From Planctomycetota bacterium (GTDB lineage: Bacteria > JAJVIF01 > JAPKYR01), in NCBI GenBank assembly GCA_030614715.1, contig JAUWTM010000009.1, positions 1 through 53,692 on the forward strand: 53,692 nt of DNA, in the 5' to 3' direction. Of the stretch, positions 2,414 to 34,174 are shown piece by piece. The position numbers and the translations under genes are program-made. The notes below the pieces were generated by a model. That model saw nothing but the letters and a program-made list of their open reading frames with translations. It did not search any database and was not told where the DNA came from. Within the stretch, counting starts at the first letter, position 1. Each line of letters opens with the position of its first letter.

Positions 2414-2453
2414 GCGGACATGCTGTCCGCGGTACTGCAGACTGGCAGTCTGC
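2414..2453. repeat. Paired palindromes (variable-arm family), copy 1
   Basis: Two perfect hairpins in tandem: arm GCGGACA, centre TGC (2414-2430), and arm GCAGACT, centre GGC (2437-2453), followed by GCTACGG. They occupy the gap between the PhnD-like gene and its upstream neighbour. The layout of two hairpins and a trailing GCTAC matches other loci in the window, although these two centres lack the flanking CG seen elsewhere. Confidence 0.75.
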
Positions 2454-2486
2454 GCTACGGAATCTCGTCTTATCTATGTTAGTGAA

Positions 2487-3548
2487 TTAAATTGGCCAGA
2501 TTTCGCTTATGGCTACGTAGTCCGATTCCTCACCCTTGTACACCGATTCGATTGTAAAAGTAATTGCCCCGACACCAATACCGTCACCTTCATCAAAATA
2601 GACCCACTGAATGCTTCGCTTGTCTTCAAAAATTACTCTCTGTGACGCACCATTATCGAAGGTGATCAGGCATTCATATGGACGGTCGTAGATCAGGTAA
2701 GTATCCAGGCCATCCCACGGTAACTCATCAGGAGCCGGTGGCTGGTGATACTGCCATCCGGTCCGGATCGCAAGTCCACGGATCGATTGACTGTCAGCGA
2801 CGTGCAGGACAAAAGATGGTTGGTCATTGCTCTGACCTATCCATGCGGTCGTCAGCCTGCCATCAGTGAGATTGCTGCTTTCGCATAACTCGTCATCGAC
2901 CATCACGATCTCTGCTGGCGACTCGAAATTCATCAGCTCATCGACGTAGAAAATTCCCCATTTGTACGGCTCCTCGTCCTGCGACAGGACCTCGTACCGG
3001 ACTCCCGACGGTACCATCCACCAGTTGTCGCTGTAATACCGGGCACCACCGTTACTCACTACGTAGATCATTCCCTCGACCTGTGTCACAGTCTGGCATG
3101 TTCCGAAATCAACGATGCTGAAAAAGCTTCGGAACATCGTTCCACCGGAATGCTGTTGAACAGCAAGGTAGAACTGACCGTCCGCTTCGAGCCAGTAGAT
3201 CGCCGGGACAATGCGATCAGTCTGGAGCAGAAGGTATTCATCATTTCCGTCCCACGTGGCAATGTAAACCGACATCCCCTCGTTCTCGAACCCACCGCCT
3301 GAATGACGTATGAACGCGATCCATTCCTCATCCGGGCTGATCGCGGCTATCCGGGGGACGTACGGTATGTTAGGCATCTCTCCAAGTGGTTCGAAGAAGA
3401 TCACTTCACCGTAATCGTTGATGTAGAGTCCGTCATCATGCCACTCAAGCTGTCTGCTGTCGGCCAGTACCGGGTTTGAAACTGCGATCAGCATCACGCA
3501 GGTCAGAGTTATCAGTATGCATTTTTTGAAGTTGTGAGAGAATCTCAT
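2487..3548 (-). CDS. Secreted protein with C-terminal discoidin/NADase-type glycan-binding-like domain
   Basis: 353 residues with a Sec signal ending ...NPVLADSR (cleavage near residue 30) and no lipobox. Residues about 35-200 read like a degenerate beta-propeller (IAAISPDEEWIAFIRHSGG, then YIATWDGNDEYLLLQTD). Residues about 215-353 fit the NADase-type glycan-binding/discoidin pattern: LTDGRLTTAWIGQ, then FVLHVADSQSIRGLAIRTGW, RPYECLITFDNGASQ and a closing strand. The assignment rests on pattern memory, so the exact family is uncertain. It would act in the periplasm or outside the cell. It precedes the PhnD-like gene on the same strand. Confidence 0.72.
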   Translation of the reverse strand: MRFSHNFKKCILITLTCVMLIAVSNPVLADSRQLEWHDDGLYINDYGEVIFFEPLGEMPNIPYVPRIAAISPDEEWIAFIRHSGGGFENEGMSVYIATWDGNDEYLLLQTDRIVPAIYWLEADGQFYLAVQQHSGGTMFRSFFSIVDFGTCQTVTQVEGMIYVVSNGGARYYSDNWWMVPSGVRYEVLSQDEEPYKWGIFYVDELMNFESPAEIVMVDDELCESSNLTDGRLTTAWIGQSNDQPSFVLHVADSQSIRGLAIRTGWQYHQPPAPDELPWDGLDTYLIYDRPYECLITFDNGASQRVIFEDKRSIQWVYFDEGDGIGVGAITFTIESVYKGEESDYVAISEIWPI

Positions 3549-3586
3549 CGTGTACGCCTCCCGGATGAGCGCAATACTAGCACTGC

Positions 3587-3621
3587 GGACGGGACGTCCA
3601 CAAGACAGCCGTCGGGACGAC
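3587..3621. repeat. Paired palindromes, copy 2
   Basis: Two short hairpins share the centre GGA flanked by CG: arm GGACG (3587-3599) and arm GTCG (3611-3621), separated by ACAAGACAGCC and followed by CGCGCTACGAG. It lies in the promoter-side gap of the 3548 minus-strand gene. Confidence 0.65.
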
Positions 3622-3668
3622 CGCGCTACGAGTTCGAAAAAATATAGCAGGTGTCAGATTAAATGGCA

Positions 3669-3695
3669 GGTTAAAGGGGACTGTCACCTTTAACC
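3669..3695. repeat. REP-like palindrome (AAAGGGGACTGTC type)
   Basis: Arms GGTTAAAGG and CCTTTAACC enclose GGACTGTCA. The core AAAGGGGACTGTCACCTTT is the same word found in the cluster at 11243-11375. It resembles REP sequences mobilised by RAYT (TnpA-REP) transposases in many environmental genomes; no such transposase is in the window. Confidence 0.7.
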
Positions 3696-3720
3696 GTCAT
3701 CCACTTGATATTTACTTCAT

Positions 3721-4644
3721 TTGACGGCTAGTATTCTACCGATGGCATCCACCCAACCATACGTACTAGTGTTGACTGCCCGATCTTCGGGATGGGGTAC
3801 CGCGAGGCTGCGCGAAGCTGCTAAAGCCAGAAAAATCCAGATCCGGACGCATGATCCATCGAAAGCGATGCTCGAGATTGGTTCCGAGCCGTCGATCAGG
3901 TTCCATGCACGTAATATCCCGATGCCTGCCGTGGTGCTGCCAAGGCTCGGTCCCGGACATTATGAAAACGGCATCGCGGTACTGAGACAGTTCGAGGCGA
4001 TGGGTGTCCCGGTGGTCAACCGTGCCGATGCGATTCAGCTCGCGCGGGATACGTACCAGTCACTGCTTGCATTAAGAAACGCCGGGCTTCCGGTTCCGAT
4101 GACATCCCGAATCCTTACCATGAAGGACCTTAAGATCGCCCGTAAGCACGTTCCCGGTCCCCCGTGGATTCTGAAAACCTTCACCGGCTCGATGGGTATC
4201 GGTACGATGCTCGTTCATAAGGTCGATCAGCTTGAAGCTGTCGCGGCAACCCTCTGGGCTCTCCACCAGCCCATACTTTTACAGGAACACATCCCGTCCC
4301 GCGACACAACCATATCTGACATCCGTACTCTCATTGTTGGAAAGCAGATCCTGAGCGCGATTCGACGCTCCGCGACCGGTGGGGAGTTCCGTGCCAACGT
4401 TCATAGAGGTGGAACTCCGACCCAGGTTGATCTTTCAAGGCGTGAGATGTTGCTTGCTTTGAAAGCAGCTACGGTGTCGGGGCTTGACATCGCCGGGGTC
4501 GACTGGATCGAGACTGTAAATGGCCCGGTCCTGCTGGAAGTAAACGCGACACCGGGATTCCAGGGTTTCGAATCCGCCACCGGCATAGATGTCGCGGGCG
4601 CTATGCTGGATCATGCTCTGATGGTATGCGGGCATGGCAGATAA
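3721..4644 (+). CDS. RimK-like ATP-grasp ligase
   Basis: Up to 307 residues from TTG at 3721. ATG at 3742 (residue 8) is an equally likely start, and neither has a strong ribosome site. The order of elements fits the RimK/ATP-grasp family: an N-terminal preATP-grasp domain (VLVLTARSSGWGTARLREAAKAR), VVNRADAIQLARDTYQSLLALRNAGLPVP, the nucleotide-binding ILKTFTGSMGIGTMLV, IRTLIVGKQILSAIRR, and the metal site GVDWIETVNGPVLLEVNATPGF near the end. Such enzymes join an amino acid (often Glu) to a carboxylate of a protein or small molecule using ATP. The substrate cannot be told from sequence; it need not be ribosomal protein S6. It stands alone here. Confidence 0.88.
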   Translation: MTASILPMASTQPYVLVLTARSSGWGTARLREAAKARKIQIRTHDPSKAMLEIGSEPSIRFHARNIPMPAVVLPRLGPGHYENGIAVLRQFEAMGVPVVNRADAIQLARDTYQSLLALRNAGLPVPMTSRILTMKDLKIARKHVPGPPWILKTFTGSMGIGTMLVHKVDQLEAVAATLWALHQPILLQEHIPSRDTTISDIRTLIVGKQILSAIRRSATGGEFRANVHRGGTPTQVDLSRREMLLALKAATVSGLDIAGVDWIETVNGPVLLEVNATPGFQGFESATGIDVAGAMLDHALMVCGHGR

Positions 4645-4685
4645 AGTGACGGGATTTTTGCTTGCGTGAATAAACCGTGAATCAG

Positions 4686-4714
4686 TTGGCTAAGTTCACA
4701 TACCATGATAATAT
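4686..4714 (+). promoter_or_regulatory. Sigma70-type promoter for the gene at 4802
   Basis: TTGGCT and TAATAT are separated by 17 bases. The predicted start leaves a leader of about 80 bases before the ATG. Confidence 0.45.
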
Positions 4715-4801
4715 GCTCCGGACAGGACAGGGATATTGTCATCTGAACTTATCCCACAGTCAGAGCTGGCCGATCCGGGCAGCAGGAGGAGACTCGACTA
4801 A

Positions 4802-5485
4802 ATGGACAACAATTCATCAAACAATTGTGGAAAAGTATGCCTATTCAGTTGCCTTGGCTGCCTTGGACTATGTGTGGTCCTGGCTCTTGTCGTGGTGATT
4901 GGGACGTGCGCAGGATGCAGCATGCTTGGCGGCATGTTCGGGGGACTGTTCTCATCAATTAGAGATATCACATCTATCTCGGGTTATTTCGAAGACCTCA
5001 AGGCTGAAGGCTGGGAAGTCGACGACTCCAGTTCAAATCAACCTTCAGGCTATGGTGCAGATGTTGAAGCTGGTGTACCAATGACCTGGCAGGCCAGGGA
5101 AAATCCGGATGACGATTGGATCGAATACACATGGATCATGGTCATGCCGGGCCTCGCTGAAATGGAGGAAATGGACGAATCTGAGCAGGAAGAGCTTGGT
5201 TTCGGCGACTTCATGGGCATGATGAATTTCACCATGGTTCCAGTTACTGAAGCCGCTCTGGAAGTTCACGAAGAACTCGGACTTGATCTTCCCGACGATT
5301 TTGACATCGACGACTGGGAGGACTACGTACAGGGCTCAGACAGGGACAGCGATCGCGACAGCGATCGTGACAGGGACCGTGATCGTGACCGGGATGAGGA
5401 CGAGGATGAGGAAACCAATGGTGACGATAACCGCGACAGGGATCGCGATGACCGTGGACCCAAATCCCTTAGAAAGGCAGCATAA
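4802..5485 (+). CDS. Membrane-anchored protein with Asp/Arg-repeat tail
   Basis: 227 residues; ATG preceded by GCAGGAGGA at good distance. The N-terminus is Cys-rich and hydrophobic (membrane segment about 13-37, with seven Cys in the first 40 residues), followed by a Gly/Met-rich stretch. The middle (about 55-175) is a small domain with acidic clusters (AEMEEMDESEQEELGFG). Residues about 180-222 are dominated by alternating Asp and Arg/Ser dipeptides, encoded by GA(C/T)AGGGA- and GATCGCGACAG-type DNA repeats (about 5336-5460), and the end is basic (KSLRKAA). The start MDNNSS resembles MDNHTS of the 240 gene. The tail is probably disordered and may bind cations. Function unknown; not a recognised family. 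Confidence 0.7.
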   Translation: MDNNSSNNCGKVCLFSCLGCLGLCVVLALVVVIGTCAGCSMLGGMFGGLFSSIRDITSISGYFEDLKAEGWEVDDSSSNQPSGYGADVEAGVPMTWQARENPDDDWIEYTWIMVMPGLAEMEEMDESEQEELGFGDFMGMMNFTMVPVTEAALEVHEELGLDLPDDFDIDDWEDYVQGSDRDSDRDSDRDRDRDRDRDEDEDEETNGDDNRDRDRDDRGPKSLRKAA

Positions 5486-5513
5486 TATTCCAGGAAATTT
5501 CAACCGAAAAAGA

Positions 5514-5538
5514 ACCCCCGGCTATCCGGGGGATTTTT
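5514..5538. terminator. Intrinsic terminator
   Basis: Perfect 7-bp stem CCCCCGG / CCGGGGG, loop CTAT, then ATTTTTG on the plus strand. It lies just after the 4802 gene; the A-rich left side could also serve the minus-strand crotonase gene. Confidence 0.75.
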
Positions 5539-5566
5539 GTTATATCGAACTTCTTGCTTTTTCTTA

Positions 5567-5609
5567 CCTTTGTGTCCTTTGTGTCTTCTCTTCCTTCGTG
5601 CCCTTCGTG
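5567..5609. repeat. CACAAAGGACAC / CACGAAGG dispersed repeat, copy 1 (minus orientation)
   Basis: Read on the minus strand this is a chain of CACGAAGG and CACAAAGGA units. The same word, in the other orientation, lies at 47535-47571. Both sit in the short gap between two convergent genes, next to an intrinsic terminator. Similar CACCAAGGACACAAAGG strings recur in many environmental genomes. Confidence 0.7.
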
Positions 5610-5631
5610 TTGGTTCTTTTCCTGGTCGCCA

Positions 5632-6420
5632 TTACTTGTACTTGAACTCAGGTTTTCTCTTTTCGATGAATGCTGTCAGGCCTTCCATCGAATCCTCCGA
5701 TGCATAACAGAGCCCGAACAGGTTCGCCTCGATGTTACCGCCCTCCATCGGTGTTGCAGCCAGGCCGTGATGGATGCTCTCGAGCGCGTACCTGACAGCC
5801 AGTCCGCCGTTTCTGAAGATCCCCTTGAAGATCTCCATACATTTGTTGATTAACTCATCACCCGGAACCACATGATTGGCAAGCCCGATCGAATGAGCCT
5901 CTTCGGCCGAATACATCCGACCCGAGCAGATCATCTCTATTGCATGGCCCTTACCGACCAGCCGCGGCAGACGGATGGTTCCCATTGCGCCGGGTATGAT
6001 TCCCAGGCTGACTTCGGGCTGTCCGAATTTCGCGCCCTCCGCGGCAACCCTCATGTGACAGGCCATCGCGAACTCGCATCCGCCGCCAAGGCAGAACCCG
6101 TTGACTGCTGCGATGACCGGCTTGTACATCGCCTCCACTTTCTCAAACACTCGTTGCAGGTCACGTGCATAGACAGGGGCTTTTATGGCATCCAGCTTGA
6201 CAAGTTCCTTGATGTCGGCGCCTGCGATAAACGCTTTTTCACCGGCACCTGTGAAGATGACACCCCAGACGTCATCATCGGCCAGCAGCTCATCGACCAG
6301 CAGGTCGAGTTCTGCAACTGTAGCCGGGTTTAAAGCGTTCAGGGCTTTCGGACGGTTGAACGTGGCAATCGCGACGTTATCTTTCACAACAACCGCAAAA
6401 TTTTCATATTCGTACGGCAT
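5632..6420 (-). CDS. Enoyl-CoA hydratase/isomerase (crotonase) family protein
   Basis: 262 residues, the normal length for a crotonase. GGGAGGAG lies just upstream of the ATG. Visible motifs: FNRPKALNAL; the oxyanion-hole stretch AFIAGADIKEL (about 63-73); NGFCLGGGCEFAMAC with Glu116; and FGQPEVSLGIIPGAMGT with Glu136. Glu116 and Glu136 match the two catalytic acids of true enoyl-CoA hydratases, so hydration of trans-2-enoyl-CoA (crotonyl-CoA class) is the likely reaction, in the cytoplasm. No other beta-oxidation gene is near, so the pathway (fatty acid, butyrate or amino-acid degradation) is open. It is transcribed divergently from murJ from an overlapping promoter. Confidence 0.93.
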   Translation of the reverse strand: MPYEYENFAVVVKDNVAIATFNRPKALNALNPATVAELDLLVDELLADDDVWGVIFTGAGEKAFIAGADIKELVKLDAIKAPVYARDLQRVFEKVEAMYKPVIAAVNGFCLGGGCEFAMACHMRVAAEGAKFGQPEVSLGIIPGAMGTIRLPRLVGKGHAIEMICSGRMYSAEEAHSIGLANHVVPGDELINKCMEIFKGIFRNGGLAVRYALESIHHGLAATPMEGGNIEANLFGLCYASEDSMEGLTAFIEKRKPEFKYK

Positions 6421-6451
6421 TTTTCTCCTCCCTTTTTCTCATGGGTCGACA

Positions 6452-6499
6452 ATCATACCCGCAAAGAATAATTGAGGCAAATTCCGGTATACGTATGAT
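6452..6499. promoter_or_regulatory. Symmetrical overlapping divergent promoters (crotonase / murJ)
   Basis: On the minus strand TTGCCT (plus-strand 6475-6480) and TATGAT (6452-6457) are 17 bases apart. On the plus strand TTGAGG (6472-6477) and TATGAT (6494-6499) are 16 apart. The two -35 elements overlap and the two -10 elements form the perfect inverted repeat CAATCATAC / GTATGATTG (6450-6458 and 6493-6501). Polymerase could hardly occupy both at once. Confidence 0.55.
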
Positions 6500-6531
6500 T
6501 GTAAGGGCACGAGATGTGCTAATATCCGCCC

Positions 6532-8166
6532 GTGTCGGATTTAATGCCACCAGATAATGTCCAGGAACCGGGTATACCGATCCCCGGCAACGGACCGTCC
6601 CCATCCACAGCGACTTTCATAGCACGGACAGGCGTTCTTCTTGCAGGTGCAACCATTCTCTCACGTATCCTCGGGCTTGTCAGGGAGATGCTGATCGCTA
6701 AATTCTACGGCGCAAGCGGTCAGACCGACAGCTTTGCGTTTGCGATCGTGGTACCTGAACTGCTCAGGACCCTGATCATTTCTGGTGCTGTCGCAAGCGT
6801 GTTCATACCCCTGATGACAGAGACCCAGAAGGCCGGTAAGCCCGAACAGGCAAAAAAACTTGCCGGACTGATGCTCACCTTCATCTCGCTGATTGCAGTC
6901 GTGGTCGTCCTCGCGGGTGAATTCCTTGCACCACAGCTCGTTCAACTGAGCGAAATACTCAGGTTCAAGCAGGGAGCGCTCACACCCGAGCAGATCGCAC
7001 TTACCACACAGCTCATCCGGATTTTGCTCCCGGTCGTCCTGTTTGTGGGTCTCTGGGGACTCATGGGTGGCATTCTGAACACATTCGACAATTTCCACGT
7101 CCCGGGACTCGCACCTCTCGCATGGAACGGAACCATAATCATACTTCTGATAATTTTCGGAAGCCAGGGCAAGATTATTCACGTCGCGTGGGCGTTCATG
7201 ATCGGGCATGGAGTGCAGGTGCTGATGCACCTTCCTGCGCTGATAAAGCTCGGGATCTGGCCCTCTGCAATCGACTGGTCTCACCCCATGCTGCACAAGT
7301 TCATCCAGCTAGCGCCGGTCGCGGTACTCGCCTACGCTGCTACGGCAGTCAACGCGTTTATCGGCCAGGGACTCGCGCTGTCGATGGAGGAATCCGCGGC
7401 TAGTTCCCTGATGTACGCTTTCAGGATTCAGCAGCTCCCGATATCAATATTCGGTGTTTCACTCGCTGTAGCGATGTTCCCTACCCTTTCACGTCAGGCG
7501 GAAGAAGGGTCGGGTAAAGATATCGTAAAAACACTTGCTCTGGGATTACGCATGACAGCCCTTGCCGTCCTGCCTGCAGTGATTTTCTTTCTAATACTGC
7601 CGGTCCAGACAATAGAATTAATATACCAGCGAGGTGAGTTCACCAGCACCAACACGATGAATGTCGCGTCGGCACTCTACTGGTACTCGTGGTCGATCCT
7701 CCCGATCTCTCTCATGCTCCTGACCGCCCGGACATTCTTCAGCGAAAAGGATCCAAAGACACCCGCCATACTTGGGATAATTACGATCGGGCTTTTTTAC
7801 GTGCTTGCGCTCACGTTATCCGGGATGTTCGGATTCGAGGGCATACCGATGTCCAATTCCATCGTTGCCTGGGTGTTCCTCGTAATCTCAGTGATCATCC
7901 TGCACGTCCGCTATCAGTCAAAAGCATCGTTATTCAGCACGGTTGGCATGACAGCGCCCATCAAGATGTTAATCGCAGGGATTCTCGAGGCTGTTGTCCT
8001 GGTTGTTTACACGAATCTTATCGGTGAAGTCCATGGAACGCTGAGTCTAATCGCATTTCTCGCGGGTGCTATGATCATCGGCGCAGGAGCATATCTGGGT
8101 GCTTTGAAGCTCCTGAAATCGGAAGATTTATCAGCAACACTGCGTCATCTTTTGAGAAAACGTTGA
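6532..8166 (+). CDS. murJ: Lipid II flippase MurJ (MviN family)
   Basis: 544 residues from GTG at 6532; ATG at 6544 is an alternative, and neither has a strong ribosome site. The protein is hydrophobic throughout, with about 14 membrane segments. It carries the MurJ N-terminal signature GATILSRILGLVREMLIAKFYGA followed by TDSFAFAIVVPELLR and SGAVASVFIPL, then VLFVGLWGLMGGILNTFDNFHVPG. MurJ turns lipid-linked peptidoglycan precursors from the inner to the outer leaflet of the cytoplasmic membrane. Length and motif order are normal. lepA follows after 42 bases, suggesting co-transcription. Confidence 0.95.
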   Translation: MSDLMPPDNVQEPGIPIPGNGPSPSTATFIARTGVLLAGATILSRILGLVREMLIAKFYGASGQTDSFAFAIVVPELLRTLIISGAVASVFIPLMTETQKAGKPEQAKKLAGLMLTFISLIAVVVVLAGEFLAPQLVQLSEILRFKQGALTPEQIALTTQLIRILLPVVLFVGLWGLMGGILNTFDNFHVPGLAPLAWNGTIIILLIIFGSQGKIIHVAWAFMIGHGVQVLMHLPALIKLGIWPSAIDWSHPMLHKFIQLAPVAVLAYAATAVNAFIGQGLALSMEESAASSLMYAFRIQQLPISIFGVSLAVAMFPTLSRQAEEGSGKDIVKTLALGLRMTALAVLPAVIFFLILPVQTIELIYQRGEFTSTNTMNVASALYWYSWSILPISLMLLTARTFFSEKDPKTPAILGIITIGLFYVLALTLSGMFGFEGIPMSNSIVAWVFLVISVIILHVRYQSKASLFSTVGMTAPIKMLIAGILEAVVLVVYTNLIGEVHGTLSLIAFLAGAMIIGAGAYLGALKLLKSEDLSATLRHLLRKR

Positions 8167-8208
8167 GTAACTACCAACTGTCCGTTAAAATTCGACATTG
8201 GCCCTTCG

Positions 8209-10020: not shown

Positions 10021-10023
10021 CTG

Positions 10024-10683: not shown

Positions 10684-10727
10684 TTAATCCTCCGTAAGGT
10701 GTCGGATTTTGGAATTGGCACTCAATT

Positions 10728-10755
10728 TTTATATACTATACCAAATTTAGGTAAA
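10728..10755 (-). promoter_or_regulatory. lexA promoter with an internal dyad
   Basis: On the minus strand TTTACC and TATAAA are 16 bases apart, and the spacer reaches into TATAGTATA (plus 10732-10740). The dyad position would suit autorepression, but I cannot verify that LexA binds it. Confidence 0.4.
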
Positions 10756-10989
10756 AAATGAAAGGGGGTAAACCGAAAATTGTCCAAATACGGTATTTCT
10801 GCAGGATACCTATGAGACTTTCACCCCCCCCCTGAAAAGCCGTTGACTAAGCTGAAGTCTAAGGAGCACTCAAGATGAACGCTGACGAGAAATGGAAACG
10901 TTTTAGACAGAATAAATGATCACTCAGATGCATTTACAACACGTTTTACGTAGAATACTCCCAACCCAAACCTGAAGGAGACCTGAATC
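10756..10989. other. Intergenic region between lexA and the zinc-ribbon gene
   Basis: Holds a run of nine C (10824-10832), a TTGACT (10843-10848) without a matching -10, and the possible micro-ORF at 10875. Nothing else is recognised. Confidence 0.5.
10875..10919 (+). CDS. Possible 14-residue micro-ORF
   Basis: AAGGAG lies 8 bases before an ATG, and 14 codons (MNADEKWKRFRQNK) end at TGA 10917-10919. The ribosome site is as good as that of real genes here. The product is very basic in its second half. It could be a leader peptide for the next gene or chance; nothing else supports it. Confidence 0.25.
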   Translation: MNADEKWKRFRQNK

Positions 10990-15412: not shown

Positions 15413-17496
15413 GGAAGCTGGTAGCAATATTAACCACGTTCGGGACGAACGTGGGACAGGCACGCATGCTCGGGACGCGCATGCTACAAAAAACACACAT
15501 GATATATAACGAAGCATGCGTGTCGTATGTAGCATGCGCGACGTATGTAGCATGCGCGTCCCGCGCATGGATACCTGTCGCATCTGCGTCCCGCAGATGC
15601 GTATTCTTAATCACTTTCTTCCTCCTCCTGACCCTTCCAACCTATGCACAGGACGGTTCCACGTACGAAGACGACATCCTCGACCTTGGCACGCTCTATG
15701 TCGAGGACACCCTCCTCGAAATCGAGGAAGTCATAGACCGTCCAACGGCGTTTGCCACCGTTATCGATCCCCGGCAACTCAGCCGTCGCTCACTTACTCT
15801 TCCTGATGTCCTCGAAACCACTCCGGGAGTTACAGTCCGGTCCTTCGGCGGGCTCGGATCACTCTCGACTATTTCCATTCGGGGTCTGGGCAGCGAGAAT
15901 GTGCTCGTGCTCCTCGACGGCATTCCACTCAATCCAACTGGAGGGTCGGTCGATCTCAGCGATATCCCACTCGACTCACTCGAGAGAATCGAAATCATTC
16001 GCGGCGGTGAAGGAGCATTGACCGGCTCTGGTGCGGTTGGAGGAATTGTCAGACTTACCAGCATCCAGGCTGAAGAAGCCGTAGATGAATTCACCAGTGG
16101 AAGGATCAGTCTCGGCAGTTACGACACCCTGACAGGTGGATTCACATGGATCGATCCCGGCGATATTTTTCATTTTGAATTCGCGGGATCGCGTGGGGAT
16201 TTCGATTTTCTGAACAACAACGGTACGCAGTTCGATTTGTCCGATGACTTCAACGACACCCGTGAGAACAACGAGTATTCATCCGTTGAAACCCGCTACG
16301 GGCATACATGGGACTTGGGTGAAGTGCGAACTATCGGAGCCTCAGTCGAGTACTTCCGTGCAGAGAAGGGAATCCCGGGTATTACGACTTTCCCCAGTCC
16401 CAACGCATCGCAGACCGACAACCGTTTTTTCTTTCATTCAAACTACACCGATCCCGGTTTCAACGACGGGCAATTAGATCTATCAATGTCATGGCTGCGG
16501 CAGGGACGTCATTATTCTGATCCCCTCGGTGAGAGTACCGGCGTCCCCTTGTACACATCGTGGATTCATAACCGTCTCGATCTGCAGTCTCAATGGACAG
16601 GGATCGGACTCTCAGACGAGGACGTGTTGACTTGGGGAGCATCATTGGCCCGGGAAACTCTCGATGCTGACGAGTATGGCAATCCATCCCGTGACAACCT
16701 CGCACTCTGGCTTCGGGATGAATGGTACCACCCGTCCGGAGCTGTCCTGACAGGAGCAGTAAGGTCGGACTGGATAGATGGTGACGCGACAATCAGCCCT
16801 CACGCTGGAATTCGATACCCCCTGAACGATGATTGGACCTGCCGATCCAATTTCAGCTACAACTTTCGTCCGCCCGGCTTTGAAGAGCTCTACAGGAATG
16901 AGGGGCTTGTTGTCGGCAACACAGACCTGATGCCTGAACGCACGCTGAGTTTCGATATCGGGGTGACACACACATCCGATCGAGTACGGTTCGAAGCTGC
17001 GTACTTCAACCTCCAGACCCAGGACATGATCGATTACCTGCTCATCTCAGGCTTCAGATGGAAGCCGTATAACATCGGTCGCATACGATCGAGTGGTTTT
17101 GAGCTATCCGCAGACTGGCTGATCGATTCAGAATGGGATCTAAGGAGCAATTACACTAGAACAAGGGCTGTCGACACGTCCGGTGACCCAACCCGCCAGG
17201 GAATGCCGCTTGCTGGTGTTCCTTCGAGTGAATTTTTCACTGAACTGAGTTGGCATTGCAACGAATGGGAAGCGTTCGCGAACTGGGAGCGTCGCGGAGC
17301 CAGCCCGATCACACCATCGGGAACACGCTTCCTGCCTATGAACTCAACGGTCGGACTGGGACTCGGTTACAGTCTGAATGACACCTCAACCCTGATGCTC
17401 GAAGCCAGAAATCTTCTCGATGAGGACCTTTCCGATATACGTGGATTTCCCCTGCCGGGACGTTCACTATTCCTGACATGGAGCAGTGATTGGTAA
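15409..17496 (+). CDS. BtuB-like TonB-dependent outer-membrane receptor
   Basis: 695 residues if the ATG overlapping the upstream stop is used (translational coupling). A plug domain follows at about 110-215 (DVLETTPGVTVRSFGG, ISIRGLGSENVLVLLDGIPLN, IPLDSLERIEIIRGGEGALTGSGAVGGIVRL), then a 22-strand-type barrel with a final aromatic (SLFLTWSSDW). Under a cobalamin riboswitch, a cobamide receptor is the best reading. The N-terminus is abnormal: residues about 9-64 are encoded by a cluster of palindromic repeats (15434-15600), and the hydrophobic signal core (VFLITFFLLLTLPTYAQ, 65-81) comes only after it. Either the signal peptide was split by an in-frame insertion, or translation starts later, for example at ATG 15499. 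There is no ATG between the repeats and the hydrophobic core. Confidence 0.9.
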   Translation: MRKLVAILTTFGTNVGQARMLGTRMLQKTHMIYNEACVSYVACATYVACASRAWIPVASASRRCVFLITFFLLLTLPTYAQDGSTYEDDILDLGTLYVEDTLLEIEEVIDRPTAFATVIDPRQLSRRSLTLPDVLETTPGVTVRSFGGLGSLSTISIRGLGSENVLVLLDGIPLNPTGGSVDLSDIPLDSLERIEIIRGGEGALTGSGAVGGIVRLTSIQAEEAVDEFTSGRISLGSYDTLTGGFTWIDPGDIFHFEFAGSRGDFDFLNNNGTQFDLSDDFNDTRENNEYSSVETRYGHTWDLGEVRTIGASVEYFRAEKGIPGITTFPSPNASQTDNRFFFHSNYTDPGFNDGQLDLSMSWLRQGRHYSDPLGESTGVPLYTSWIHNRLDLQSQWTGIGLSDEDVLTWGASLARETLDADEYGNPSRDNLALWLRDEWYHPSGAVLTGAVRSDWIDGDATISPHAGIRYPLNDDWTCRSNFSYNFRPPGFEELYRNEGLVVGNTDLMPERTLSFDIGVTHTSDRVRFEAAYFNLQTQDMIDYLLISGFRWKPYNIGRIRSSGFELSADWLIDSEWDLRSNYTRTRAVDTSGDPTRQGMPLAGVPSSEFFTELSWHCNEWEAFANWERRGASPITPSGTRFLPMNSTVGLGLGYSLNDTSTLMLEARNLLDEDLSDIRGFPLPGRSLFLTWSSDW
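15434..15600. repeat. Palindrome cluster inside the TonB receptor gene
   Basis: Perfect hairpins: arm CCACGTTCG, centre GGA (15434-15454); arm CATGCGCG, centre TCC (15551-15569); and arm GCATCTGCG, centre TCC (15580-15600). One hairpin with a single mismatch lies at 15464-15484 (GCATGC.CG, centre GGA). Decayed GCATGCG...CGTATG copies fill 15514-15550. GGACAGGCA links the first two hairpins. The whole stretch keeps an open frame with the receptor. Confidence 0.88.
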
Positions 17497-23092: not shown

Positions 23093-23097
23093 TGTAT

Positions 23098-23147
23098 CAT
23101 GCGCGACTCGCGCATGAGTACCGGTCTCACGACCGACCCGGTCGTGA
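23098..23147. repeat. Paired palindromes, copy 4
   Basis: Arm CATGCGCG, centre ACT (23098-23116), and arm TCACGACCG, centre ACC (23127-23147). Both cores have the CG-NNN-CG form. They sit directly between the 20081 gene stop and the likely start of the methyltransferase. Confidence 0.85.
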
Positions 23148-23164
23148 CAACCGGCAACTGGACT

Positions 23165-23911
23165 ATGCAGAAAGATAACCTCGTTTACGGACCTCATGCA
23201 GTATCGGACGCACTCGACTGCGAACGCGCACAGCGTTTGTGGGTGCTTAAGACTGCTGATAAAGCCAAGGCGGCACAGGCACGTCAGGAACTCGCAGATC
23301 GTGCGAAAGCACAGGACCTGAAAGTCGACTGGGTTCCGCGCTCCTACCTCGATTCGCGCATGGGACGTGCAAATCACCAGGGAATCATCGCGAAGGTCAG
23401 TCCTTTCCCCTACACCGGCTTCGACGAATGGCTCTCACTCAACGCCCCTCCACAGAATTGCCTTGTTATTATCCTCGACGGCATTCAGGACCCCGGTAAC
23501 CTGGGTCACATACTTCGGCAGGCGGCTGGATTCATGGCCGACGGTGTGATCATACCGGAACGTCGCGCATGCGGGGTAACTCCGACAGTGGAGAAAACAT
23601 CCGCGGGAAACGCAGGTAAAGTACCTGTCATCCAGGTGAGCAATTTAACCCGGACGATCAAGGCCCTCCAGGAAACCGATATATGGTGCTACGCGGCGAG
23701 TATGTCCGGTCAGACTCCTTTAACCAGTGTTGAATTCCCGCCTCGAACGGCGTGGGTGATCGGAGGCGAACATGAAGGGCTGTCAAGACTCGTCCTTGAA
23801 TCGTGCGACGAGTCCGTGATAATAACGATGCCCGGACCGATCGAGAGCTTCAATGTGGCCACATCCGCTGCCCTGGGGCTGTATGAGTACAGAAGGAAAT
23901 ATCCTGTTTAG
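23165..23911 (+). CDS. RlmB-type SpoU rRNA (guanosine-2'-O)-methyltransferase
   Basis: 248 residues from ATG 23165; the frame opens at 23099, but that extension would translate the palindromes. No good ribosome site is seen for either. Begins with the RNA-substrate domain NLVYGPHAVSDAL. The three SPOUT motifs are present: LDGIQDPGNLGHILRQAAGF (motif 1), WVIGGEHEGLS (motif 2) and MPGPIESFNVATSAALGLYEYRR (motif 3). Length equals RlmB/TrmH-family enzymes, which 2'-O-methylate a ribose in 23S rRNA or tRNA using SAM and a trefoil knot. RlmB is the closest by the N-terminal domain, but the exact target is not certain. Confidence 0.9.
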   Translation: MQKDNLVYGPHAVSDALDCERAQRLWVLKTADKAKAAQARQELADRAKAQDLKVDWVPRSYLDSRMGRANHQGIIAKVSPFPYTGFDEWLSLNAPPQNCLVIILDGIQDPGNLGHILRQAAGFMADGVIIPERRACGVTPTVEKTSAGNAGKVPVIQVSNLTRTIKALQETDIWCYAASMSGQTPLTSVEFPPRTAWVIGGEHEGLSRLVLESCDESVIITMPGPIESFNVATSAALGLYEYRRKYPV

Positions 23912-26493: not shown

Positions 26494-26516
26494 GTTAAAA
26501 TACGGATCTGGGTCCC

Positions 26517-26544
26517 TTGACGTAACCTGATTTCGTGGTAAATT
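26517..26544 (+). promoter_or_regulatory. Possible promoter for the gene at 26594
   Basis: TTGACG and TAAATT are 16 bases apart, with a leader of about 43 bases. Confidence 0.35.
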
Positions 26545-26593
26545 GAAATAACCGCTATTTTTAATCCCCGCATTTTCTCCAGGAGGGCTTCCA

Positions 26594-29062: not shown

Positions 29063-29115
29063 TTATTCTGTTACGCAACAAAACAACCCACGCTGACGGG
29101 GGGGGCAACATATAA

Positions 29116-29139
29116 GGTCCATCCCCGAAGGGATGGACC
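29116..29139. terminator. Hairpin between convergent genes
   Basis: Perfect 10-bp stem GGTCCATCCC / GGGATGGACC with a CGAA tetraloop. No T-run follows, so termination may need a factor, or the hairpin may protect 3' ends of the two converging transcripts. Confidence 0.5.
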
Positions 29140-29173
29140 CATTTAAAGTAAACCTACACTCAAATTAACACTT

Positions 29174-31570
29174 CTAGTGAGGTACCATTATACCCCAGTC
29201 ACACTGGAATTCACCCCAGACGTTATTGGTAATGTCCAACCATGTTCCTGTATCAAAGTCCCAGATTCCAATCTCGCTTGCGTCGAATCCACCATGATCG
29301 AATACGAGTTTCGATCCATCGGGACTGAAATCAGGTGAACGGATGTACGCCTCGAAATTGATAATCAGGTCCGCTGGATTCCACGAATCTATCGGGGAGA
29401 TCCATATTACACGTCCACCACTGTTCGGGTAACTTGTCGCCCACGCTATCTGCGTGCCGTCCGGACTCCCTGTCGGGTTGTCGTTCCATGCACCGTTGTC
29501 CGTGTAATGGGTGATATTCCCGCTGTCTACGTCGTAAATTCGAACCTCAGATGTCATGAACTCCATGAAATATATCTTTGAGTCATCGAAGTTAAACTGC
29601 GGTGCCCATGTATCAGCACCCGTTGTAAGTGATTCGACATTACCACCTGTGTAATCGAACGTGTAAAGATCGTGCGGACCGTACCACACTGGCGCCATCG
29701 CGGCCACGATCTTAGTACCGTCATTGGAGAAATCGCTGTAGAGCGCTTCGTGCCCCTCCGGGGTGATGTCTGTGTCGATTCCGGTCGCTACTTCAATAAG
29801 ATGAATCTCGCCGACTGCAAGGTTGCAGAACGTGTACATGATGTACTTGCCGCAGGGTGATAACTTAGCGCATTCCTGGAAAGCACCGCCATCATAAAAC
29901 GTCCACTGCTCGGGTTCAGTGAGGCCTTCGGGGTCGATAGAATAAATCTGCATGCCGGCGTAAGGTCCATCGCCCCGGAACACAATCCTCTGGAGCATCT
30001 CCTCAATGATTGAGAAATACTCATCTGAATCGTCGTAGACTTCCGGATAATCAACCGAGGAAACGCGCACTTTCACGGTATCGCTCATATCATCGGGAAT
30101 ACCCTCCCACATGTACGAGCCAGTGTTTTGTGCAGCATCTACAATTTCAATTATGTCGGACACGAAATCGTCCTTTGAATATTCGAGCTTGACTGTATTG
30201 AAGGGATCGCCACCCGACCACATGATTGCGTGATTAGTACCGACCGACCAGGCTTCACCGCCGTTTGGAATTTCCAGAGTAAATCCCGGAACTACATCGC
30301 TGATACTCACCTGCGCCAGGAAATACGCCGCGAGTGGAGCATCCGGGTAAACGAAATTTTCGCCACCGTCGAGCTGCGGCACGTACGAAACCGGATTCGC
30401 TGATGTCACGGTTCCGAGAAGCATCTTTTCACCCGAAGATTGAAGGTCGAGTAGTGAGTTGTCGAGTTCAAAGGTGTAAACACTCGATGTGTCAGGATTC
30501 TGACCGGGATGCGCATGGGATAGTGGCAGCACATCGACCGGAGCTGCAAGTGGTTCACCTTCGAGCCAGATCGAAGTAATTTCTCCGGCAACTCCCGACG
30601 GATTTCCGTACGCCTGCCAGTCGAAGACCGTGACCGACATCTCGATAGTACCCCCGCTCGCGATGTCCGTGTAAAAAACATCACCGCCAGTCTGCTCACC
30701 AAGCACAATATACGGCTCCTGCATCTGGGCATCGGGTGGGAAGCTGTCGACCGGGTAGTCCGGTGCACCCGATGGATCGGGAAGCGCCCAGCTTGCATCG
30801 ACTGCAAGGTTAAATTTGAACTGCAGTGGATTTGTCGGGAACTGGATCTCGATTATCCGGGTGTTAACCCCACCTGATGCCGAAAACGTGCCGCGATTCT
30901 CAGTCTGGAGCATCGTGACGTCGTCATCGCAGCAGATTTCATCCGCGAAGTACTTGTAAGCGTTCAGAGTCGATGTGGGTGCCGAATCGGTACCGAGAAT
31001 TGACGGCTTGTAAGACAGCAGCGGCATGGGATCAGTAAATTCCGGTGGATTCCACCATCGCGTGTATCCGTCGGGGTTGACCAGGTAAGGTACCGATGAC
31101 GGATTACCGTACGGGTCCGGTGAAGCGTAAGAAATCGACGTGTCGTGAATCCCGGTTGTGTCAGAATCGGCCATGAAGATGCAGCGCACGTCGAAACCAC
31201 GGTACTGCGGCAGTCCCGGAAACGGGTGTCCTATCGCCACTTTAACTTCCACATAACCTTCAGGGAAATTTGTCCCGCCTTCGAATGCAAAGGTCAATAA
31301 ATCAACCGGAGAGAACGGCGGGGTGAGGAACTGCTGGACGTTCGCGTTGAAATTCGCGCCGCGAAGCGGGACGAGCTCGACAGAAGCTGAATCGACGCCT
31401 GTAGGGATGAGTGTGACGTCCCACATTCCCCAGAGGATACGCGAGTTCTCATTTTGTACTACTTGAGCACGTGAGCTGAGTTCAGGCGCAACGGGATTCC
31501 CTCCGCCACCACCGCATGAAATGAGGAATAATCCCAGGGTGAAAATCAGAGGGATGTACAGTCTACCCAT
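29174..31570 (-). CDS. Lipoprotein: shared N-terminal domain, Ig-like linker and TolB-type propeller
   Basis: 798 residues; CCGGAGG precedes the ATG. Lipobox LISC with Cys19 and a Gly5 tether. Residues about 40-420 are the shared domain (ILWGMWDVTLIP, GHPFPGLPQYRGFDVRCIF, NPDGYTRWWNPPEF, FNLAVDASW, SVTVFDWQAYG), without the early CxxC, most like the 20081 version. Residues about 425-515 fit the Ser-Thr-rich Kre9/KNH-like Ig domain (LEIPNGGEAWSVG, IMWSGGDPFNTVKLEYSKD, GSYMWEGIP, KVRVSS). Residues about 520-798 are a TolB/WD40-like propeller (AKLSPCGKYIMYT, SDFSNDGTKIVAAM, PQFNFDDSKIYFME, SPDGTQIAWAT, SPDFSPDGSKLVFD). Surface protein of unknown role. Confidence 0.85.
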   Translation of the reverse strand: MGRLYIPLIFTLGLFLISCGGGGGNPVAPELSSRAQVVQNENSRILWGMWDVTLIPTGVDSASVELVPLRGANFNANVQQFLTPPFSPVDLLTFAFEGGTNFPEGYVEVKVAIGHPFPGLPQYRGFDVRCIFMADSDTTGIHDTSISYASPDPYGNPSSVPYLVNPDGYTRWWNPPEFTDPMPLLSYKPSILGTDSAPTSTLNAYKYFADEICCDDDVTMLQTENRGTFSASGGVNTRIIEIQFPTNPLQFKFNLAVDASWALPDPSGAPDYPVDSFPPDAQMQEPYIVLGEQTGGDVFYTDIASGGTIEMSVTVFDWQAYGNPSGVAGEITSIWLEGEPLAAPVDVLPLSHAHPGQNPDTSSVYTFELDNSLLDLQSSGEKMLLGTVTSANPVSYVPQLDGGENFVYPDAPLAAYFLAQVSISDVVPGFTLEIPNGGEAWSVGTNHAIMWSGGDPFNTVKLEYSKDDFVSDIIEIVDAAQNTGSYMWEGIPDDMSDTVKVRVSSVDYPEVYDDSDEYFSIIEEMLQRIVFRGDGPYAGMQIYSIDPEGLTEPEQWTFYDGGAFQECAKLSPCGKYIMYTFCNLAVGEIHLIEVATGIDTDITPEGHEALYSDFSNDGTKIVAAMAPVWYGPHDLYTFDYTGGNVESLTTGADTWAPQFNFDDSKIYFMEFMTSEVRIYDVDSGNITHYTDNGAWNDNPTGSPDGTQIAWATSYPNSGGRVIWISPIDSWNPADLIINFEAYIRSPDFSPDGSKLVFDHGGFDASEIGIWDFDTGTWLDITNNVWGEFQCDWGIMVPH

Positions 31571-31715
31571 CAGGAACCTCCGGTCAGGTCAGTTGTTACC
31601 AGCACGCATCCAGCATGTAAATGATATCACAAGTTAACAGGGATTTTTTACCGGATTACGGTGTCATGACTCCCAATTTCTACGTTGGTTCTCCGTGCGC
31701 CGACATCACTATGGG

Positions 31716-32510
31716 TCAGGTGTTGAAAACCTTAAGCTGGTACGTGGCATTACCTACGTCCGCTGATACCCTGATGTAATAGGTTCCATCGGGTACGACG
31801 GAAACCACTATTGTCTTCTGATTATCGACAGTGGAGGATTCTTCTACCAGCGTGCCAGTGCTATCCAGTATTGCTATTCCCACGTCACCGTTTCTATCGT
31901 CAAAATCGATGGTTGTGGTAAACGTGCCGGAACCCGGTTGTTCGATCCTGAAAATGTCAACCAGGTCGGTCTGATCGACTCCACCGGTCAGGGAGATGGT
32001 ATTCATAGTAATCAACTGAGATCCTGTCGGCGTGGCGGAATCATTCGGCTCGATTTCACAAATCGGATGATCGGCAACCGTGGCGACAAGGTTGTATGCC
32101 GTTTCACCTGAGAAGCTCTCCACCATAAGACAGTAAGTCCCGGTTATGTAAACAACGTAACTGAAGTCTAACGTTGTACCACCGGGCACACTGGCTGACA
32201 GCGCACTTCCAGCCAATCCTCCGAAATCATTCAAAATGTATATTCCAGTTTGGGCTGACGAGTTAGTGTAAACAAATGAAACAGTTATAACCTGCCCCGC
32301 TGTAAGTTCGACCTGGAAGTAGTCCTGGGCATCCGTTTGATCGCTTACAGATCCTGATAATCCTGTGATCGGCATCGACACGGCCTGTGCCTGACCCCAG
32401 GCATTGTTAGGTTCGGTTTCATTGAGTCCACCACCGGACCCACCTCCACTGCACCCAGCGACGATCGTGAGAATCAGGGTCAGCAGTACTAATCTGTGTA
32501 AATTTTTCAC
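31716..32510 (-). CDS. Lipoprotein with two PPC (pre-peptidase C-terminal) domains
   Basis: 264 residues from GTG at 32510, chosen because AAAGGAG lies 8 bases upstream and the lipoprotein signal follows at once; an ATG 24 codons earlier in frame has no signal sense. Lipobox VAGC with Cys20, then a Gly/Ser tether. Two PPC-type beta-sandwich domains: about 34-145 (ETEPNNAWGQAQAV, DQTDAQDYFQVELTAGQVITVSF) and about 148-262 (CEIEPNDSATPTGSQ, VDQTDLVDIFRIE, DGTYYIRVSADVGNATYQLKV). PPC domains usually sit at the end of secreted peptidases; here no catalytic domain is attached, so it may be a stand-alone binding lipoprotein. Confidence 0.85.
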   Translation of the reverse strand: MKNLHRLVLLTLILTIVAGCSGGGSGGGLNETEPNNAWGQAQAVSMPITGLSGSVSDQTDAQDYFQVELTAGQVITVSFVYTNSSAQTGIYILNDFGGLAGSALSASVPGGTTLDFSYVVYITGTYCLMVESFSGETAYNLVATVADHPICEIEPNDSATPTGSQLITMNTISLTGGVDQTDLVDIFRIEQPGSGTFTTTIDFDDRNGDVGIAILDSTGTLVEESSTVDNQKTIVVSVVPDGTYYIRVSADVGNATYQLKVFNT

Positions 32511-32850
32511 GTCACACTCTCCTTTGTGAGTTATATGATTTTTATCTGCAGGGGAAACACTCTCCCGGCAACTCCCGTTCAATAATTGAGTTAAAAGCTA
32601 ACATTTTTTTATTAACGTGTCTAACATAATTAGCCAACGATGTTTTTATATTGACGAAGAGTCCGGATATTAGTTGCATCTTGTTCGGCAATCATGCGCG
32701 CATCAAGCATGCTACGCAAAAAAGGACTTGTCACCGCTGTATGTTATATCTGAAAAAAAAGCATGATCGGGTCGATCATGCGACAGGCAATCATGCGCGA
32801 GACGCGCATGCTACATTGGATGCTACATTGTGAGGGCACTATCAATCAGC
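32511..32850. other. Long gap with palindromic repeats
   Basis: The PPC lipoprotein's ribosome site and presumed promoter lie at its left end. From 32693 it holds a decayed CATGCGCG...GCATG copy and then two perfect palindromes (next feature). No coding region is convincing; ATTGGATGCTACATTG at the right end contains a small direct repeat of GCTACATTG/ATGCTACATT. Confidence 0.5.
32693..32810. repeat. Palindromes, copy 5
   Basis: Arm GCATGATCG, centre GGT (32761-32781); GACAGGCAAT linker; arm CATGCGCG, centre AGA (32792-32810); then CTACATT. A degenerate CATGCGCGCATCAAGCATG element with a following CTACGC lies at 32693-32715. The linker and the trailing CTAC repeat the layout at 15434-15488. 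Confidence 0.85.
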
Positions 32851-34038
32851 TTAACAGTACTGCTCGCCCTCGATCCATGTGTGTTCGACCTGCGATCTCA
32901 TATCCAGGGGATGGCCTGAGTAGACCGCAAGGCATGCGAGCCTGCCCTTCTTGATGAAACCGTAGTCCTTGTCGATGTTCAGGAGCTTTGCGGGTTTGCT
33001 TGTCATCATCGCCATTGCCTCATCGTCCGTGCATCCACCCCGAACCGCCATCGCGCCGCACATCCTGAGGTGATGAATCGGCATCACCGGATGGTCGGTC
33101 ATCAGGCACACGTTCGCTCCCGCCTTGTGAAGAACGTACGGGGCTCTCTCATCGCGATACTTGAGCTCGTACTTGACCCTCGCGGTGTCCATCGGACCGA
33201 TAACGCAGGTAATTTTGCGTTTCGCGATGAATTCCGGTATCAGCCAGCCCTCGGTGCAATGCTCCAGAACGACGTTGAACTTGAATTCCTCCGCAAGACG
33301 TATTGCGGTTTCGATGTCGTCACGACGGTGCACATGCCAGCGTGACGGAATCTTCTTTTCGAGCAACATCGCCAGGTGCTCTTTGCCGAGATCGATATCA
33401 AAGGGCTTTGGCTCTTCCTTTTTCTTCTTTCCCCTGCCGCCCTTCTTCTCGCTTTTCTCAGCAGCATCGCGTTTTTTCATGTAGTTCCGGACTTCGATTA
33501 AAATTTTCCTTATCAAGCCCGCACTCGCCATACGCGTATGCGGCGCCTTGTTCAGCGACTGTCCTACCCTGAACGGATTTTCACCAAGCGCCATTTTCAT
33601 GCCATGATAGCCGTCGATCAACATGTCCTCGAGCGTCTCGCCGTAGCATTTGATCACTGAACACATTCCGCCAAAGAGGTTTGCCGAACCGGGGAACGAT
33701 CCGACAGCGAATACCCCACCGCGACGGGCATCCTCAAACGCCATGTCCTTCGGGAAGATAGCATCCATCGAGCGGACGTAAGCCGTATTGTAATCGCCGT
33801 ACTCGTTAGCCTGCACGCCAATCTGCCCGACACCATCCTCAAACAGTCCGAGATGGCAGTGAGCGTCGACAAGTCCCGGTGCGAGGAACTGTCCTGATTT
33901 CAGCTTAACCGTTTCAGTTCCCTTCGGGGCTGTGAGATTCACTCCCACCCTCTGGATTTTCTTCCCTTTGACGAGGACATCGACTCCCTTCCTGAAGCCG
34001 TCTTCGAGGTATACCGTACCGCCGGTGAATAGGGTCAT
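32851..34038 (-). CDS. Cytoplasmic amidohydrolase-family protein (imidazolonepropionase-like)
   Basis: 395 residues; GAGGAG precedes the ATG; no signal peptide. Amidohydrolase features in order: an N-terminal beta segment (TGGTVYLEDG, VLVKGKKIQRVG), the metal motif VDAHCHLG (His60, His62), WHVHRRDDIETAI, LEHCTEG, LMTDHPVMPIHHLRMCGAMAVRGG with the catalytic Asp, and the closing TSKPAKLLNIDKDYGFIKKGRLACLAVY with IEGEQYC. It should hydrolyse a cyclic amide or amide-like substrate with bound metal, or act as a peptidase-like member. Odd point: a Lys/Glu-rich insert around residues 180-215 (KKRDAAEKSEKKGGRGKKKK) between the conserved blocks. Substrate unknown. Confidence 0.88.
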   Translation of the reverse strand: MTLFTGGTVYLEDGFRKGVDVLVKGKKIQRVGVNLTAPKGTETVKLKSGQFLAPGLVDAHCHLGLFEDGVGQIGVQANEYGDYNTAYVRSMDAIFPKDMAFEDARRGGVFAVGSFPGSANLFGGMCSVIKCYGETLEDMLIDGYHGMKMALGENPFRVGQSLNKAPHTRMASAGLIRKILIEVRNYMKKRDAAEKSEKKGGRGKKKKEEPKPFDIDLGKEHLAMLLEKKIPSRWHVHRRDDIETAIRLAEEFKFNVVLEHCTEGWLIPEFIAKRKITCVIGPMDTARVKYELKYRDERAPYVLHKAGANVCLMTDHPVMPIHHLRMCGAMAVRGGCTDDEAMAMMTSKPAKLLNIDKDYGFIKKGRLACLAVYSGHPLDMRSQVEHTWIEGEQYC

Positions 34039-34125
34039 TGTTCACTCCTCGGTGGATCAAGTTGGTTGACAGCGGCAACTAGTATAAGGAGAATTAACGG
34101 AAACGCAATGTGCAGGTTAAATTAT

Positions 34126-34174
34126 CATGCCCGGGTCGGGCATGGGACTGGTATTCATGCCCGGGTCGGGCATG
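34126..34174. repeat. Paired identical palindromes, copy 6
   Basis: CATGCCCGGGTCGGGCATG occurs twice, exactly 30 bases apart (34126-34144 and 34156-34174), separated by GGACTGGTATT. Arm CATGCCCG, centre GGT. It lies between the divergent amidohydrolase and S41 genes. Confidence 0.9.

Follow-up and report, generated by a model that had tools for sequence, protein, structure and literature searches.

Covarying twin hairpins in a planctomycete genome are GTAG-type REP elements that flank RAYT transposases

Along a stretch of 53,692 nucleotides from a Planctomycetota bacterium (contig JAUWTM010000009.1 of assembly GCA_030614715.1) lie short hairpins whose arms differ from place to place, although the two halves of a hairpin still match. 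What keeps both halves in step when the sequence changes? We refer to the whole stretch as the window; it is contig C205 of a draft genome, G000 (4,293,134 bases, 254 contigs, completeness 87.18). A sequence-only reading had described the hairpins as one dispersed family and offered two causes, selection on folding or copying that remakes one arm to match the other. The hairpins are GTAG-type repetitive extragenic palindromic (REP) elements. They fall into three families, each of which flanks a REP-associated tyrosine transposase (RAYT) of its own, and the coordinated arm change is genuine covariation in a DNA element. REP/RAYT identity is of a known kind, and the twin-hairpin unit is a distinct variant.

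Three REP families and their transposases

The unit of family A is directional and 53 nt long. A GTAG or GTAT foot is followed by a first hairpin (H1; 8 bp, 3-nt loop), an 11-nt linker ending in GTCN (for example ATTACCTGTCN) and a second hairpin (H2; 8 bp, 3-nt loop) in the same orientation as H1. Families B and C keep this order of parts, as GTAGC-H1-AGTAYC-H2 and GTAGC-H1-TGTCTN-H2, respectively. The shared ACAGGCA and ACTGGTA linkers and the following CTAC that had been pointed out are indeed there, but they are the reverse complements of TGCCTGT, TACCAGT and the GTAG foot, in a unit that has a direction.

To count the units, a covariance model of family A was built on a set called A1, which holds 20 units selected with a pairing filter (20 of 24 rows; three reverse readings of counted units and one duplicate were left out). 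It gave at least 67 matches in the genome at E<=5.1e-6 and at least 84 at E<=0.1, both lower bounds, with 150 of 2768 first-look candidates scored. Because a covariance model favours paired sequences, we added structure-blind patterns, in which the foot, the linker and a few outer stem bases are fixed and the inner stem is free; the family A pattern fixed the GTA of the foot and the outer C-A of H2, and GTAG was fixed in the patterns of families B and C. These patterns matched 43 units of family A, 10 of family B and 35 of family C, while each pattern read backwards, as a control, matched none. The 43 structure-blind units replaced a looser-anchor set of 45 family A units, whose loci had partly been retrieved by the covariance model. 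In four units of that looser set, which lie outside the 43, H2 has matching arms around a 4-nt loop.

The Y1 transposase family PF01797 has 10 matches in the genome and none in the window contig. The linked transposase that the sequence-only reading had proposed to look for does exist, but outside the window: for each of the three unit families there is a flanked RAYT on another contig. The RAYT of contig C195 (locus L004, open reading frame (ORF) 1132-1797) has a family A unit upstream on the + strand (C195:45259-45311) and another downstream on the - strand (C195:46110-46162). On contig C188 the RAYT (L008) stands between inverted family B units at 5790-5834 and 6453-6497, and on contig C115 the RAYT (L006) stands between inverted family C units at 2404-2448 and 3043-3087; on these two contigs the flanking units overlap the ends of the mechanically called RAYT ORF. 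A PNHVH motif is found in the RAYT proteins. The three family-linked RAYTs score 81.5, 89.2 and 82.1 bits with NF047646 (REP_Tyr_transpos, cut-off 80), and that of C195 matches the TnpArep structure 4er8 (E 1.6e-5).

The window itself contains five complete family A units and two half copies, together with one unit each of families B and C. The family B unit, at 2414-2458 (-), reads GTAGC-H1 (arm GCAGACT, loop GCC)-AGTACC-H2 (GCGGACA/GCA) and is one of the 10 structure-blind matches, and the family C unit, at 3585-3629 (-), reads GTAGC-H1 (GCGGTCG/TCC, with a G.G mismatch)-TGTCTT-H2 (GTGGACG/TCC, with a T.G wobble) and is one of the 35. The family A unit at 15435-15487 (-) reads GTAG-H1 (CATGCGCG/TCC, with one G.A mismatch at 15465-15483)-CGTGCCTGTCC-H2 (CACGTTCG/TCC). 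At 15511-15546 (+) lie the two tandem half copies, each a foot and a 5' arm without the 3' arm and thus not a hairpin, immediately upstream of the next unit at 15547-15599 (+), which reads GTAG-H1 (CATGCGCG/TCC)-GATACCTGTCG-H2 (CATCTGCG/TCC). The unit at 23094-23146 (+) reads GTAT-H1 (CATGCGCG/ACT)-AGTACCGGTCT-H2 (CACGACCG/ACC), that at 32762-32814 (-) GTAG-H1 (CATGCGCG/TCT)-ATTGCCTGTCG-H2 (CATGATCG/ACC), and that at 34126-34178 (-) GTAT-H1 (CATGCCCG/ACC)-AATACCAGTCC-H2 (CATGCCCG/ACC). The first ATG of a SpoU-like methyltransferase ORF (23099-23911) falls inside the H1 of a REP unit; since this mechanically called start lies in the hairpin, the true start of the gene is probably downstream of 23099.

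Hairpins are present at every locus that had been listed, and their positions agree to within a few bases with those given. Three REP families had nevertheless been mixed into one, with the loci at 2414 and 3587 each apart from the rest, and the statement that both halves always match fails at the 3587 locus and at 15465-15483. Perfect hairpins with a 3-nt loop lie at 2414-2430, 15434-15454, 15551-15569, 15579-15601, 23097-23117, 23127-23147, 32761-32781, 32792-32810, 34126-34144 and 34155-34175. Counting arms of at least 8 and loops of 3-8, the window has 14 hairpins, compared with 3-6 in five first-order Markov simulations. The sequence GTAGCATGCGCGTC, allowing up to two mismatches, occurs 8 times in the window against 0.32 expected, a number reached in none of 100 shuffles. 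We also used a 761,557-base sample, composed of the window and 40 stretches of the same genome; it is not fully random, since some stretches lie on contigs already matched by an earlier pattern search. It holds 54 perfect 3-nt-loop hairpins with arms of at least 8 (12 in one simulation), and 29 of the type with CG on both sides of the three central bases, the core described in the sequence-only reading (none in one simulation).

Paired change under a fixed framework

For the 20 units of A1, the covariation score is 0.390 compared with 0.126 after shuffling, and none of 500 shuffles reached the observed value. In the 43 structure-blind units of family A, 449 of 473 free stem cells are Watson-Crick pairs against a shuffled mean of 331. 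The suggestion of selection on folding is supported at stem positions 3-6 of H2, where 163 of 172 cells are Watson-Crick, compared with a mean of 70 and a maximum of 91 over 2000 shuffles. At position 6 of H2 the four Watson-Crick pairs occur 11, 11, 11 and 10 times with no mispair in 43 units, so that knowing one side is enough to know the other (2.0 bits of mutual information). The change is concentrated in H2, with 23 distinct 5' arms among the 43 units; H1 has 9, and CATGCGCG is the H1 arm in 26 units. Paired stem changes of the same kind, on a smaller scale, are found in families B and C. The earlier view that the pattern is not what decay of one ancestral repeat would give stands for the pairing; even so, every set forms a single family whose changes are compensated.

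Around these variable positions the unit is nearly constant. The apex of H2 is C-G at position 7 in 42 units (T.G in one) and G-C at position 8 in 42 (C-G in one), and the outer C-A of the stem, which was pinned in the 43-unit pattern, is invariant in A1 as well, where it was not pinned. The foot of H1 is GTAG in 34 of the 43 units, GTAT in 7, GTAC in 1 and GTAA in 1; GTA was pinned in this set, and it is also invariant in all 20 units of A1, where one foot base could differ. H2 of family A has no GTAG foot, and the GTC of its GTCN is invariant in 20 of 20 A1 units, for which the linker was not a selection criterion. The fourth foot base tracks the second base of the linker, which begins with AT in 27 of 34 GTAG units and with AG or AA in the 7 GTAT units. 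Outside the units the signal is weak (T or C at -1, A at -2, C-T-T at +1 to +3) and insufficient to name a cleavage site.

Not all stem positions are paired. In family C, a G.G mismatch at position 3 of H1 is kept in 35 of 35 copies, and position 2 of H2 is C-G in 18, T.G in 15 and otherwise in 2. The fixed G.G mismatch recalls the conserved bulge of E. coli REPs. One-sided changes in family A of G000 and its relative G002 amount to 24 G.T, 2 A.C and 3 other mismatched cells; on the GTAG strand, G.T stands against A.C at 19 to 2 (and 3 other) in G000 and at 5 to 0 in G002. We considered this G.T excess, which is significant in G000, as a test for the strand that folds, and retain it as only a hint, given shared descent and its failure to recur in the wider data sets described below.

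Relatives show the same design. In a search of 60 genomes, our own included, the family A model matched only G000, G001 (14 matches) and G002 (32); the latter two belong to the same family as G000 and to another genus. The G002 unit has diverged in all its parts, with foot GTAA, apex CA/TG and linker ATCTTCAGTCN, and H2 is variable there too. The unit-flanked RAYT of G002, on contig C620, is 50% identical to that of C195; it is flanked by units of the same type, and its NF047646 score of 64.7 is below the cut-off of 80. One G002 unit (L201 1084-1136, G002:C620) is placed in frame within the N-terminal portion of the very RAYT reading frame flanked by units of this kind. A residue code in the RAYT for the foot, suggested by FWQQ with GTAG in G000 and FWMQ with GTAA in G002, was dropped because M is also seen with GTGG (L284), and Q with GTAG, GTGG and GTAA.

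More widely, a scan of contigs across genomes yielded 343 RAYT homologues, 80 of which were kept as loci; by record name they come from Planctomycetota, Verrucomicrobia, Acidobacteria, Hydrogenedentota, Peribacteria and others. The 80 loci contain 104 perfect and 43 one-mismatch hairpins with a GT[AG]G foot, an 8-bp stem and a 3-nt loop starting with TC, TT or TG, while seven altered feet, as a control, yield 0-9 hairpins each. The loop is TCC in 85 of the 147 and TCT in 52. Because GT[AG]G hairpins beside RAYTs far exceed those with altered feet, the framework of loop and stem appears to be what a widespread group of RAYTs recognises.

The twin design, in which a hairpin with a GTRG (or GTRA) foot is followed 2-14 nt on by a hairpin of the same orientation with a non-GTRG foot, was found in 26 of the 80 loci, or 22 if only 8-bp stems and 3-nt loops are admitted. 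Two further loci, L231 and L272, were excluded as offset readings of a GTRG-footed second hairpin. Of the 45 twin pairs from the 26 loci, 43 have different arms in H1 and H2, and the second foot starts with GT in 33 pairs (21 of 26 loci). In a separate count that omitted L216, a locus with the hairpins of G002:C620 that very probably is G002 itself, it did so in 20 of 31 locus-foot pairs against a chance of 1 in 16, the loci not being independent. In G060, a second planctomycete and the genome of locus L276, a structure-blind search gave 17 units with 5 H1 arms and 10 H2 arms, in which 202 of 204 free cells are paired against a shuffled mean of 143; position 4 of H2 is G-C in 7, C-G in 7, T-A in 2 and T.G in 1. 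A variable H2 under near-perfect pairing is therefore not peculiar to the genome of the window.

Recognition by RAYTs and other explanations

We consider it likely that the elements are REPs dispersed by RAYT/TnpA_REP enzymes, which are HuH single-strand nucleases, and that these enzymes read them by foot, loop and pairing. When the GTAG strand becomes single-stranded, its hairpins would fold, and the RAYT would bind them by the foot, the loop and the paired stem. Units bound in this way would be copied or moved. Bases in the middle of the stem would go unread and be free to change as long as they stay paired, and unpaired variants would not be propagated. On our analysis both hairpins would be bound and units would move as a whole; H2 would be read mostly by shape, which would leave a stem that is near-saturated yet almost perfectly paired.

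The TnpA_REP of Stenotrophomonas maltophilia offers a model for such reading. According to PMC8266576, the REP that this enzyme cuts is single-stranded and has a perfect stem of 8 bp with a 3-nt loop; a mismatch near the middle of the stem affected or almost eliminated cleavage, changes in GTAG impaired it and one loop base was crucial, while changes of stem sequence had no drastic effect. If the enzymes here act likewise, foot, apex, loop and pairing would be selected and the middle of the stem would be free, which is the pattern observed.

Several points weigh against this account. In the 60-genome search, whose stricter filters drop weak matches, the family A model finds its unit in just 3 genomes. 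Under a stricter hairpin definition, 21 of the 80 RAYT loci (L216 included) lack the three main feet, so that the link of hairpins to RAYTs is not universal. The G.T excess is not independent across copies, is reversed in the 80 RAYT loci (4 against 14, mostly at stem position 1) and is absent from G060, which has one T.G and one G.G. Binding of H2 by the RAYT and movement of the unit are steps that we infer.

The strongest alternative is that template switching, or quasi-palindrome correction, in replication rewrites one arm from the other, so that pairing comes from mutation bias and selection is secondary; we regard it as possible, though on the unlikely side. Changes that a wobble cannot bridge (G-C to C-G, T-A to A-T) are common and mispairs are rare, as at position 6 of H2 in G000 and position 4 of H2 in G060, and such a mechanism has been argued for RNA hairpins in PMC8794818. 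Besides, copies of the foot and 5' arm (up to two mismatches) cluster within 40 nt upstream of the units: 12 of the 43 G000 units and 5 of the 14 G002 units have one there. Downstream the numbers are 0 and 1, and upstream but in the opposite strand they are 4 and 0, respectively. Whole hairpins make up 2 of the 12 upstream copies in G000 and at least 1 of the 5 in G002, and for 10 of the 43 G000 units the tandem half copies and the foot that follows are 16-19 nt apart. This upstream bias suggests re-copying at the hairpins. However, template switching leaves the constancy of foot, apical pairs, loop and linker and the linkage to RAYTs unexplained, and one-sided wobble intermediates do exist. 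Inverted loops are rare: the 28 hairpins of G002 include a single GGA, the 86 of G000 a single TGC (middle G), and the 17 H1 loops of G060 no such case (the H2 loops there were fixed by the pattern), although selection against inverted loops could mask them. Template switching may thus be a live source of paired changes, with selection by the RAYT deciding what spreads.

Selection at the RNA level, with the units serving as transcribed terminators or mRNA stabilisers as has been proposed for REPs, is in our view very unlikely. The GTAG strand tolerates G.T wobbles, a kind of pairing that PMC3733652 interprets in REPs in this way, and T is enriched just 3' of H2 (25 of 43 units at +2 and 29 of 43 at +3). 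Nevertheless, the orientation of flanking genes relative to the 43 units is mixed (++ 13, -+ 9, -- 8, +- 7, not assigned in 6), and an RNA role would need neither near-invariant GTA and GTC feet nor a linkage to RAYTs. Only 5 of 43 units fall within ORFs of at least 150 aa, compared with 78% of positions drawn at random in the same stretches; together with the mixed gene orientation, this intergenic bias fits selection at the DNA level better than a transcribed role. At the gathering score no Rfam family covers the hairpins of the window, where the sole match is a cobalamin riboswitch elsewhere. That riboswitch (RF00174, 13106-13292, + strand, 74.7 bits) lies upstream of a 729-aa ORF without Pfam match and of a TonB-dependent receptor gene.

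Ordinary inverted repeats or chance hairpins without a shared origin, which the several different arm sequences listed in the sequence-only reading might bring to mind, have a negligible chance of being the answer in view of the fixed 53-nt layout, the 67 or more strong matches and the empty reversed controls.

Dispersal by RAYTs can be drawn together with template switching in a broader picture, which is tentative and, taken as a whole, rather unlikely. The twin hairpin would be a two-guide, single-stranded mini-element, equivalent to an IS200/IS605-like transposon that has lost its cargo and kept its left and right ends, joined together. In this picture a RAYT dimer would hold H1 by GTAG and loop, and H2 by a GTNN guide and shape alone, so that the middle of the H2 stem would be a sequence-free spacer of which only pairing is required. 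Paired changes would arise mostly in one step, by template switching during single-stranded copying, and the design would be widespread in Planctomycetota, Verrucomicrobiota, Acidobacteriota and Peribacteria.

The units amount to a natural selection experiment on how TnpA_REP enzymes select and spread REPs: dozens of copies with swapped mid-stem pairs and a nearly fixed foot, apex, loop and linker give testable predictions of how the enzyme reads its substrate. They also provide a case, seemingly one of DNA and not of RNA, for telling compensatory change from template switching.

Comparison with known systems

Published work (PMC2817692, PMC3686654, PMC3733652, PMC6006769) already covers REPs, RAYTs, multiple families in a genome, inverted copies at the flanks and complementary changes in stems, and compensated stem changes in particular have been reported for REPs by Nunvar 2010 (PMC2817692) and Di Nocera 2013 (PMC3733652). 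As described in the latter two papers, GTAG REPs and their RAYTs resemble the present system in the GTAG foot, short stem, small loop, intergenic position and multiple copies, and also in inverted copies flanking the RAYT, several families per genome and sub-families with compensated stems. Unlike the GTAG REPs presented there, the units here are direct twin hairpins, with GTCN or another GTNN as the foot of H2 and a near-saturated second stem. A literature search that excluded most subscription journals found no description of a direct GTAG-H1-linker-GTNN-H2 unit, which is weak evidence of novelty.

The REPIN (Bertels and Rainey 2011, PMC3116915) is similar in that two REPs form one dispersed unit. 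As defined in PMC3686654, however, a REPIN pairs inverted REPs, whereas the two hairpins here are in direct orientation with arms that mostly differ; one strand carries both loops (TCC/TCC or ACC/ACC, for instance), and we did not assign the units to REPINs. Nor were they assigned to the CGTC-type REP, which (PMC3733652) has a CGTC foot, 4-5-nt loops and an AT stem start, because the GTCN foot of H2 follows CC(T/G/A), the loop is mostly 3 nt and the stem starts with CA.

The S. maltophilia REPtron Sm shares the 8-bp perfect stem and 3-nt loop right after GTAG, the need for pairing and for a loop base, and the tolerance of stem sequence; the substrate assayed in PMC8266576 has a single REP with loop GCT, unlike the mostly NCY loops (TCC, TCT, ACC, ACT) found here. 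TnpA_REP subclass 2.4, as outlined in PMC6006769, has NHVH and WQ motifs and can have REP copies in frame inside the transposase gene, as on G002:C620. Its 'double foot' REP is different, being one hairpin with GTRG and the reverse complement of GTRG at the other end. The subclass 2.4 label would apply to the RAYTs here by their motifs, and that of G002 has WM, not WQ.

With GTAG and GTCN feet on the same strand, the unit has an IS200/IS605-type geometry, but its flank signal is too weak to match a guide to a cleavage site, and its place in that class is putative. In IS200/IS605 ends, too, both hairpins lie on the same strand. The ends of IS608 and ISDra2 (PMC6006769) each carry a hairpin after a guide tetranucleotide, two hairpins in all, and are served by a Y1 HuH enzyme. 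The units here differ in having only 4-12 nt between the hairpins (for the pairs listed) and no cargo, and the direct two-hairpin unit suggests a bridge from REPs to two-ended IS200/IS605 transposons.

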